NCBI GenBank assembly: GCA_020725425.1
Contig: DYFA01000024.1
Location: 1-35,262, forward strand
Direction: 5' to 3'
Source of the DNA: Aneurinibacillus sp.
GTDB lineage: Bacteria > Bacillota > UBA5301 > DYFA01
Length of the DNA: 35,262 nt
Positions 30,595 through 35,068 of the stretch are shown one piece after another. Position 1 is the stretch's first letter; every line of letters starts with the position of its first letter. The notes below the pieces were generated by a model. The model had not been told where the DNA came from. It saw nothing but the letters and a program-made list of their open reading frames with translations, and did not search any database. Made by a program: the position numbers and the translations under genes.

Positions 30595-32529
30595 TCAGCT
30601 TCCGGGACTGCCCCCCGGCGGCTCGGCCAGCGCCGGCCCGGCAATGCGCACCTCCGCCACCCGCCGGGTCCAGCGCATCCGGTCGCAATACTCCAGCAGA
30701 GGGATGGCGAACTTGCGGCTCAGGCCCAGTCTATCCTTGAACGCTGGCGGCTCGAGCGTCTTCTCCGCGGCGAAGTAGTCCCGCAGGACCTCCCTCACCC
30801 GGCCCAGAGCCTCGGGGCTGAAGTACAGCTCCTCCGAGACCTTGACCAGCCGCCCCTCTTTGACCAGCCGGGCGGAAAGCTCTTCCGCCATGCCCGGCGC
30901 GAGCCCCCAACGCTCTTGAAGTTCGCCGAGGGTCGGCGGGGTCACCCCGCCCTCCGCAATGGCCTTTTCGATCGCCTTCAGCCGCCGCTCCTGCTCGGCG
31001 GAGACCGCCGGGTCGTGGCCGGCCAGCGCGACCTCGCGGCCCGCCGCCTTCACCTGCCCCGCCCCCTGCCAGGTTTCCAGGAGCAGCCCGAACTCCTTGC
31101 TCTCCCACCGCGGCGCCACCCGGCTGCGGAGCTCCTCCTTCGGCATGCCGGGGCGCAGAGGAAACCGCTCGTGGAACTCGGCCAGCGCCTCCTTGGCCGC
31201 GGCGGTCACGGCTTTAAAGGCCTGGGCGTCGAGATAGTGGCCCTCCCCCAGCGCCGCGGCGGTCCCGGCGCGGCAGGCCTTCTCCAGCTCGGCCTGAGTC
31301 CGGCCCGGGTCGAGCATGGCCGTCCGGGCGAGGCGCTCCACCGTCAGCGGGCGGCCGCCGCTCCGGGCCAGCGCCAGCGCCACGAGGTCCGCCGGGTCGC
31401 CGCGCTCCTCCCGGGCCAGCTCCACCACCGTAACGGCCCGCATCCGCCGGTGGCGCGGCGGGTGGGCGTCGATGATCCGGCCGCCGCCCAGCGTCCGGGC
31501 GGGGGAGTAGGACCGCACCACGAACAGGTCATCCCGGACTGCCACAAGCGGCTCCGCGAGATGGAGCTGGGCCCAGGCCGACTCCCCCGGCTGGACCTCG
31601 TCCCGGTCGAGGAACCTCACCCGGGCCAGGACCTCGCTCGTCCCGACGTGCAGCCGCACCTGGTCCCCGTGAGCCACCCCGCGCGGGGCGCGCTCCAGGA
31701 TGGCCAGCTTCACATCTAGCAGGCGGGTCGGGGTCAGTTCCCCCGGCGCCGTGACGACCTCGCCCCGGGCGATTTCCTCCTTCTCCACGCCGCCCAGGTT
31801 CAGCGCCACCCGCTGCCCGGCCTCGGCCGCCTCCACCGGCGACCCGTGCACCTGCACCTGGCGCACCCGGGCTGCCTTCCCCGAGGGCAGGATGGCGACG
31901 GCGTCCCCCGGCCGGATCTTCCCGCCCCACAGCGTGCCGGTGACGACGGTCCCGTGTCCCTGGAGGGCGAAGACCCGGTCGATCGGCAGCCGCAGGACGG
32001 CGGACTTCGCCCGGTACTTCTCAGCGGTCAACTCGTCGATCAGAGCGACGAGGCGGTCCACCCCCTCCCCCGTGGCGGCCGAGACCGGGGTGATCGGCGC
32101 CTCCGCCAGAGCGGTCCCCTTGACCTTCTCCCGGATCTCCTCTGACACCAGCTCCCGCCACTCCGGTTCCACCAGGTCGATCTTATTCAGGACGATGATT
32201 CCCCGCTGGACCTGCAAAAGAGTGAGGATGTCGAGATGCTCGACGGTCTGGGGCATGACCCCCTCGTCGGCCGCCACGACGAGCAGCACCAGGTCGATCC
32301 CGGCCGCTCCCGCCAGCATGTGGTGGATGAACCGCTCGTGCCCCGGAACGTCGACGATCGCCGCCTGTCGCCCGCTGGGAAGCTTGAAGGGCGCGAACCC
32401 CAGTTCGATGGTGAGGCCCCGCTCCTGCTCCTCCTTGAGCCGGTCGGTGTTGACGCCCGTCAGCCGCTTGACCAGCGTGGTCTTGCCGTGGTCCACGTGC
32501 CCCGCCGTGCCGATCACTACGTGCCGCAT
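30595..32529 (-). CDS. selB: Selenocysteine-specific elongation factor SelB
   Basis: The protein has 644 residues. The GTPase domain shows [13 protein letters not shown] (G1, about 8-20), GLTIELGF (switch I), [12 protein letters not shown] (G3), LNKIDLVE (G4) and a VSA G5 motif. Beta-barrel domains follow ([15 protein letters not shown]), and the C-terminal half has four winged-helix-like repeats ending with [20 protein letters not shown], which bind the SECIS RNA hairpin. It delivers Sec-tRNA to UGA codons. The gene begins 4 bases after selA, and an internal GGAGG at the end of selA serves as its ribosome site. It is the last of selD-selA-selB. Confidence 0.96.
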
Positions 32530-32533
32530 GGCT

Positions 32534-33931
32534 CTACTGCCTCCAGGCCGCCAGGGCGGCCAGGATCAGGTCCTCCTCGCCGGGCAGGACGGTGCGCAGG
32601 TTGAGGAGGAGCCGGCCCTGGGCGACATGGGCGATCACCGGCGGGTCGGCTGACCGCAGCCGGGCCAGGCACTCCTCGAGTGACCCCACTTCCGGTCCGG
32701 GGGTAATCCCCACCGCCCAGCTCGGCACTTCTGCCCCCGGGAGCGATCCGCCCCCGGCTTCCGTCGGGTCGGGCACCACCTCGACCCCGGCTCGCTGGCC
32801 CAGGACCTCCCGGGCCCGGGCCGCCAGGCGCTCCGCCGCTTCCTTGACTTCCTCCGCCGGCCGGGTCAGCATGGCCAGGGTCGGCACCTCCCGCAGCGCC
32901 AGCTCCGGGTTGCGGTAGAGCCGCAACGTCGCTTCGAGCGCCGCCAGGGTCAGCTTGTCGACCCGCAGCGCCCGCATCAGCGGGTTCCGGGCCAGGCGCC
33001 CGACCAGCTCCGCCCGCCCGACGATGACTCCCGCCTGCGCCGCCCCGAGCAGCTTGTCGCCGGAGAAGGTGACCAGGTCCGCCCCGGCCGCCACGCTCTG
33101 CTGCACCGCCGGCTCGGCCGGCAGCCCATAGCGGCTCAGGTCCACCAGAACTCCGCTTCCCAGGTCCTCGACGACCGGCAGGCCCCGTTTCCGTCCCAGA
33201 CTCACCAGCTCGGCCAGCGGGACCTCCGCGGTAAACCCGATCACCCGGAAGTTGCTGGTGTGGACCTTCAGGAGGAGCGCCGTCTCCGCCGTGATCGCCC
33301 GCTCGTAGTCGGCCAGCCGGGTCTTGTTGGTCGTCCCCACCTCGACGAGGCGCGCCCCGCTCCGCGCCAGGACCTCGGGGATGCGGAAGGCGCCGCCGAT
33401 CTCCACGAGCTGCCCCCGGGAGACGATGACCTCCTTCCCGGAGGCCAGGGTATCCAGGATGAGAAGGACCGCCGCGGCGTTGTTATTCACCACGAGGCCC
33501 GCCTCGGCGCCGGTGATCTCGGAAAGCAGGCCCGCCACGTGGGCGTGGCGCGAGCCCCGTTCCCCGGTGCGCAAGTCGAATTCCAGGTTGCTGTAGCCCT
33601 CGCCGACCTCCGCCAGCAACTGGCGGGCCGCCCGGGCCAGCACCGCCCGTCCCAGGTTGGTATGGAGGATGATGCCGGTAGCGTTGACCACCCGGCGCAG
33701 ATTGCGGGCGCTCAGCCGGCTTTCCAGGCGGCTCAGGAGCAACTCGTCCCAGGCCTCCAAGCTTCCGGGAGGCTTCCCGCCAGCCGCCACCTTCTCCCGC
33801 TCCTCGGCGGCGAGCTCCCGCAGGGCGAGGACCACTTCCTCCCGCGACCAGCGTTCCGCCGCCGCCCGGGCCGCCGGCCGCTCCAGGAGCCGGTTCATCG
33901 CCGGGATCCGGGTGAGCCCGTCGTCCTCCAT
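32534..33931 (-). CDS. selA: L-seryl-tRNA(Sec) selenium transferase SelA
   Basis: This 465-residue PLP enzyme turns seryl-tRNA(Sec) into selenocysteyl-tRNA(Sec) using selenophosphate. The start is the ATG at 33931 with GGGGGAGGAG ahead, and it matches the family opening ([14 protein letters not shown]). Key stretches are [70 protein letters not shown], and the PLP lysine at about Lys293 in [13 protein letters not shown]; the GG-P usual after the lysine has become GAA. The gene is 69 bases after selD. Confidence 0.95.
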
Positions 33932-33980
33932 CCGCCACACTCCTCCCCCGGCGGCGCCCTGCCGTCGGGCCTCGCTTCCC

Positions 33981-34000
33981 GGGCGCCGCAAAAGGCGCCC
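33981..34000 (-). other. Hairpin between selD and selA
   Basis: A perfect 7-bp stem GGGCGCC / GGCGCCC (33981-33987, 33994-34000) with a 6-base loop starts directly after the selD stop. No T-run follows, so it is not a classical terminator; it could protect or weakly attenuate the message. Confidence 0.5.
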
Positions 34001-35068
34001 CTAGACTACCACCACGCCCTGCTCGCCGCGCTCCCGGACCTCGCCGACCAGCGCCGCCGCCTCCCCGCCCGGGGCCTGCCGGACAGCCGCCAGGAGCTCC
34101 TCCGCCCGGCCGGCCGGCACGGCGATGAGCAGGCCGCCGGAGGTTTCGGGCCCGCAGAAGATCAGTTCATCCAGCTTCCCGCCGGCGACGCCCGCCCGGC
34201 GCAGGGTGTACTCCCGGTTGTTGTGGGCTCCGGCGGGGATCAGTCCCTGCCCGGCCATCTCCCGGACCCCCGGCAGGAGCGGCACCGCCCCGCCCTCGAT
34301 CACCAGCGTCACCCGGCTGGCCTCAGCCATCTCCAGGGCGTGCCCCACCAGGCCGAACCCGGTGATGTCGGTGGCTGCGTTGACGCCGACCTTAACCATG
34401 GCCCGGGAGGCGTCCCGGTTGAGGGCGCTCATCACCCGGATGGCCTCCGCCACCACCCCCGCCTCCGCCACCCCGCCTTTGATGGCCGTGGAGATGATGC
34501 CGGTACCCAGCGGCTTGGTCAGGATCAACCGGTCCCCCGGCCGGGCAGCGGCGTTCGTCACCAGTTTCTCCGGCTCGATCAGCCCTGTCACCGCCAGGCC
34601 GTACTTCGGTTCCTCGTCCTGCACGGTGTGGCCCCCGACCAGGACCGCCCCCGCCTCGGCGACCTTCTCCGCTCCGCCCCGCAGAATCTCCCGCAGGAGG
34701 TCCAGGTCGCCGCGGCAGGGGAAGCAGACGATGTTCAGGCAGGTCAAGGGCTCCCCACCCATGGCGTAGACGTCGGACAGGGCGTTGGCCGCGGCGATGG
34801 CCCCGAAGGCGTACGGGTCGTCGACGATGGGCGTGAAGAAGTCCAGCGTCTGGATGAGCGCCTGGCGCTCGCCGATGACGAACACCCCCGCGTCGTCCGC
34901 CGTGTTGAACCCGACCAGAAGCCGTGGATCGGCCGCCTGCGTCAGCCCGGCCAGGATCTGCGCCAGGTCCCCTGGCGCGTACTTGGCCGCTCACCCGCTC
35001 TTGGTCGCCATCTCCGTCAAGCGCAGCTTGCGCCGGTTATCCGCCCCGGCTACCTGGAAATCCCTCAT
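34001..35068 (-). CDS. selD: Selenophosphate synthetase SelD, a selenoprotein with in-frame UGA
   Basis: The enzyme makes selenophosphate from selenide and ATP. Read through the TGA at 34991-34993 it has 355 residues, with Sec at residue 26 and the partner lysine at 29 (SG-Sec-AAK), the spacing of Cys17 and Lys20 in E. coli SelD. The segment RLTEMATKSG before the TGA and YAPGDLAQIL after it both match the family, so the frame is continuous. Later parts include TLDFFTPIVDDPYAFG, GGEPLTCLNIVCFP, VGGHTVQDEEPKYG and ATDITGFGLVGHALEM. The ATG at 35066-35068 has GGAAAG ahead; one further ATG at MATKSG would leave too little. Ordinary gene calling would start it at 34885 and lose the catalytic site. 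Confidence 0.93.
34960..34993 (-). promoter_or_regulatory. Bacterial SECIS element of selD (UGA plus hairpin)
   Basis: Twelve bases after the TGA (34991-34993) the minus strand has GCGCCAG, a GGGAC loop, and CTGGCGC (34960-34978): a perfect 7-bp stem with G at the first loop positions. The loop begins 19 bases after the UGA, in the known range for SelB recognition. Confidence 0.8.

Follow-up and report, generated by a model that had tools for sequence, protein, structure and literature searches.

The selD gene near one end of a 35,262-nt contig of an Aneurinibacillus species is interrupted by an in-frame TGA, which raises the question of whether the TGA ends the protein, reflects a mistake in the sequence, or specifies selenocysteine (Sec). 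An earlier note on this stretch of DNA (henceforth referred to as ‘the window’, meaning all 35,262 nt) had proposed that SelD is itself a selenoprotein with Sec in place of the catalytic Cys. The analysis described below leads us to conclude that the window contains, almost certainly, a standard Sec-containing selD whose UGA codon 26 is translated as selenocysteine with the guidance of a SECIS hairpin.

The selD reading frame and its SECIS hairpin

The earlier note named no strand; selD runs along the minus strand. When TGA is translated as Sec (U), the frame given in Table 1 yields 355 residues, contains a single TGA and is otherwise open throughout, with its stop codon at 34001-34003. The read-through protein scored 379.2 bits against the SelD equivalog model TIGR00476 (NCBIfam; cut-off 125), and the match covers residues 16-319, that is, both sides of the TGA. 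In near full-length alignments with the solved structures 2yye and 3u0o, which we take to be the SelD proteins of Aquifex and E. coli, respectively, U26 (in TKSGUAAKYAPGDLA) is aligned with the N-terminal Cys of 2yye (SGCAAK) and of 3u0o (GAGCGCK), and the nearby Lys of this glycine-rich stretch (SGUAAK) is kept in comparison with both. The aligned Cys and Lys of the two structures are the catalytic residues, which places the TGA at the catalytic Cys position, as the earlier note had claimed.

Table 1. Features of the selenocysteine gene cluster in the window
Feature	Position	Strand	Evidence
tRNA-Sec (selC), anticodon TCA, 5' end cut by contig end	35181..35262	-	RF01852, 55.6 bits
selD, selenide, water dikinase (selenophosphate synthetase)	34001..35068	-	TIGR00476, solved SelD structures
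In-frame TGA, probable selenocysteine codon 26, catalytic-Cys position	34991..34993	-	alignment to homologues
Bacterial SECIS hairpin GCGCCAGG-GGA-CCTGGCGC	34960..34978	-	folding + synonymous-codon null
selA, L-seryl-tRNA(Sec) selenium transferase (start codon approximate)	32534..33991	-	TIGR00474, 594.6 bits
selB, selenocysteine-specific elongation factor	30595..32529	-	TIGR00475, 357.5 bits

Folding of the 49 nt from the TGA gave a free energy of -27.2 kcal/mol (z = -2.87 relative to dinucleotide-shuffled sequences), and the structure is topped by a hairpin with an 8-bp stem (7 bp if the loop is counted as GGGAC). The G-rich loop at the right distance that had been described from the letters is thus present. 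Bacterial SECIS elements are expected to have a G at loop position 1 or 2 and a loop that lies 16-37 nt past the UGA (PMC13188914), and the window hairpin, in which the GGA loop opens with G and begins at +20 nt, agrees on both counts. We compared the hairpin with a synonymous null in which the protein was kept fixed, codons were sampled by local usage and the whole allowed SECIS range was considered. A stem of 8 bp or longer arose in 0.4% of the draws and one of 7 bp or longer in 2.3%, and a folding energy as low or lower was found in 0.17%. In a separate null, restricted to loop starts at +15-21 and to the codon usage of selD itself, the same hairpin gave values of 2-2.7%. Of the 793 TGAs in the window, only 14 precede a stem of 7 bp or longer.

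Selenocysteine machinery and other candidate selenoproteins in the genome

The genome contains selA, selB, selC and selD, which in the window lie on one strand in the order tRNA-Sec, selD, selA, selB. The contig ends at 35262, inside the tRNA-Sec gene and upstream of selD; because of this the truncated gene was missed by ARAGORN, and it was detected by the Rfam model. Two further RF01852 matches, considered as a possible second tRNA-Sec (L120 and L121), are tRNA-Ser according to ARAGORN, and the RF01852 matches examined in the assembly included no further credible tRNA-Sec. Nor does the assembly (96.85% complete, 72 contigs) contain a second selD, and so the full-length Cys-containing copy that would have spoken against a Sec-type SelD was not found in it; a Cys-type copy hidden in a gap of the assembly would be a remote possibility. 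The only other match, on contig C23, is HypE (449 bits against the HypE model); HypE and AIR synthase-like ATP-binding proteins have their superfamily in common with SelD, but HypE is not a SelD.

It is likely, judging from the placement of their TGAs, that at least two further selenoproteins are encoded in this genome. The first is FdhA (G000:C52:9960-12845 (-), locus L114), with Sec in HQARIUHSATVAGLGPSFGRGAMTN, where the TGA occupies the usual Sec site of the formate dehydrogenase alpha subunit. The second is a HesB-like (Fe-S_biosyn) protein (G000:C55:51961-52233 (-), locus L128) with an in-frame TGA in IYLRGYGUSGPNFGM. Since these two genes also carry well-placed TGAs, UGA decoding is likely in use in the genome; the same TGAs rule out SelD as its sole selenoprotein, and SelD would therefore not be the sole reason for retaining the Sec machinery. 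We also observed a twin-arginine-like signal (RRDFLKLSG) in frame ahead of FdhA, and the terminal codon of the HesB-like gene is likewise TGA. Searches of the genome with the ybbB/selU model for the selenouridine trait, and for FlpD/FrhD, gave no match, and a search for GrdB of glycine reductase gave none in this genome or in the control genomes.

Codon 26 in relatives and alternative explanations of the TGA

Among relatives of the same class or phylum, TGA was found at the codon for residue 26 in all 29 loci fetched (from 28 genomes), and in each of the 28 relatives with selD the best copy has TGA at this position. The window SelD and its closest counterpart among those found have about 60% sequence identity, and at the locus nearest by identity (L037, which is the L005 locus) tRNA-Sec, selD, selA and selB follow one another in the identical order. 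We combined the relatives' loci with the best 80 from a contig search, counting each locus once, into a set drawn from Bacillota, Thermodesulfobacteriota, Chloroflexota, Acidobacteriota and other phyla. The 109 distinct loci comprised 90 with TGA, 19 with a Cys codon and none with any other codon, proportions that are biased towards Sec by the use of a Sec-type gene as the query. The in-frame UGA of the window gene therefore stands where homologues have Cys or Sec. A hairpin score of at least 14 was reached by 80 of the 90 TGA loci versus 2 of the 19 Cys loci; the scores of the two groups differ with a Mann-Whitney p of 1.4e-10, a value that ignores relatedness and in which 12 of the 19 Cys rows represent one clade.

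These results bear directly on the possibility that a TGC or TGT codon of an ordinary Cys-type SelD was turned into TGA by a mistake in sequencing or assembly. The assembly is a draft, selD lies near a contig end and TGA is one base away from a Cys codon; however, an error at 34991-34993, which the earlier note had named as a potential refutation, has little plausibility, given that relatives retain TGA at codon 26 together with a SECIS, and the hairpin present here is typical of Sec-type genes and mostly absent from Cys-type genes. We thus consider an error very improbable. Still less probable is that selD is a decaying pseudogene with a true premature stop: a single in-frame stop is what such a gene could show, but this stop falls exactly on the active-site codon, the remaining frame is intact and scores strongly as SelD, and no other selD was found in this genome, which has the Sec machinery and other likely selenoproteins. 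A restart of translation at the GTG at 34885, where a 294-aa open reading frame begins, leading to a truncated SelD with another role, is the least probable of the three, given that the product would be devoid of Sec26 and Lys29 in a genome where no other selenophosphate maker was found, and the SECIS would be left without a purpose.

The 294-aa frame does matter for annotation, as it is what a plain list of open reading frames contains and what TGA-blind gene callers would output, namely a SelD fragment without its active site, with a start in that frame at 34885 or further downstream. For such callers the earlier note's warning that standard annotation loses the active site holds; as a general claim it is too strong, because in RefSeq the Sec-type selD genes of Terrisporobacter mayombei (on pTM1) and of Peptoclostridium acidaminophilum are annotated as continuing past the TGA. 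On the plasmid pTM1, a Sec-type selD is succeeded by selA and selB and then by genes for a selenium-associated regulator of the LysR type and a class V aminotransferase, which together make up a plasmid-borne selenium cassette. Small plasmids of Terrisporobacter, about 21 kb in size, carry selD; they comprise NZ_CP101638.1 (locus L129) and seven others, pTM1 being one of the set. In a separate case, one genome (G009) has three selD copies, one of which (G009:C13:16663-17643) has no in-frame stop and is perhaps of the Cys type beside the Sec type.

Hairpin position across selD genes and the place of the window gene

The 90 TGA-type selD genes differ in where the hairpin lies. Called at a lax synonymous-null threshold (0.1) with an ungapped stem score, and with a conserved LAQVL protein motif that favours some stems, 29 genes including the window gene have the loop at +16-21 (class A), 50 have it at about +33 (class B), 6 have both and 5 have neither. 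Both positions fall inside the known range of 16-37 nt. On the SelD tree the labels cluster, yet 15 changes are required for A and 14 for B, at least 8 and at least 9 of them, respectively, on well-supported branches, and a single family (f4) contains both classes (L007 A, L008 B, L011 A). It is possible, though we would lean against it at present, that the selD SECIS alternates between two places at a fixed Sec codon, with several moves and with some genes retaining both hairpins. Because of the lax threshold, the ungapped score and the bias from LAQVL, we treat this pattern, drawn from hairpin scores and the SelD tree, as a lead only. No description of a two-position selD SECIS was found in a light search of the literature. 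If the pattern is true, SelB would accept hairpins displaced by about 13-17 nt relative to an unchanged UGA, and selD genes with two hairpins would be evolutionary intermediates.

For the window gene we propose that SelB and Sec-tRNA(Sec) decode the UGA of codon 26, guided by the hairpin just downstream, and that Sec26 and Lys29 (SGUAAK) would form the active site at which selenide and ATP are converted to selenophosphate. SelA would use this selenophosphate to make more Sec-tRNA, and SelD, which feeds Sec-tRNA synthesis, would therefore be required for its own full-length synthesis. The earlier note's reading, in which SelD is a SECIS-bearing selenoprotein that relies on the machinery it supplies, is strongly supported. 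The note's description of this as something seen in some anaerobes understates the matter: 19% of the SelD genes in the reference set of a 2015 survey have Sec, always at the same position (PMC4561486), and a 2026 review places SelD second in size among the selenoprotein families of prokaryotes (PMC13188914). Sec-SelD, among the most frequent and most familiar of bacterial selenoproteins, and its self-dependence have been on record since at least 2006 (PMC1794560, PMC4561486, PMC13188914).

Cys-type SelD proteins (E. coli 3u0o and several Lachnospiraceae loci) have the family and the active-site position in common with the window gene, but have TGC or TGT where it has TGA, and lack a consistent SECIS hairpin. 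With Sec-SelD of the SPS/SEPHS2 type (TIGR00476), in contrast, the window SelD shares the family, the probable Sec at the catalytic Cys position, the downstream SECIS and the adjacent selA, selB and tRNA-Sec, and differs in nothing of substance. The Sec-SelD described here is an ordinary member of a well-described kind and nothing new in kind; as a textbook selenoprotein it carries little weight as a discovery, and the locus provides a clean selC-selD-selA-selB example in a genome with relatives in the Bacillota.
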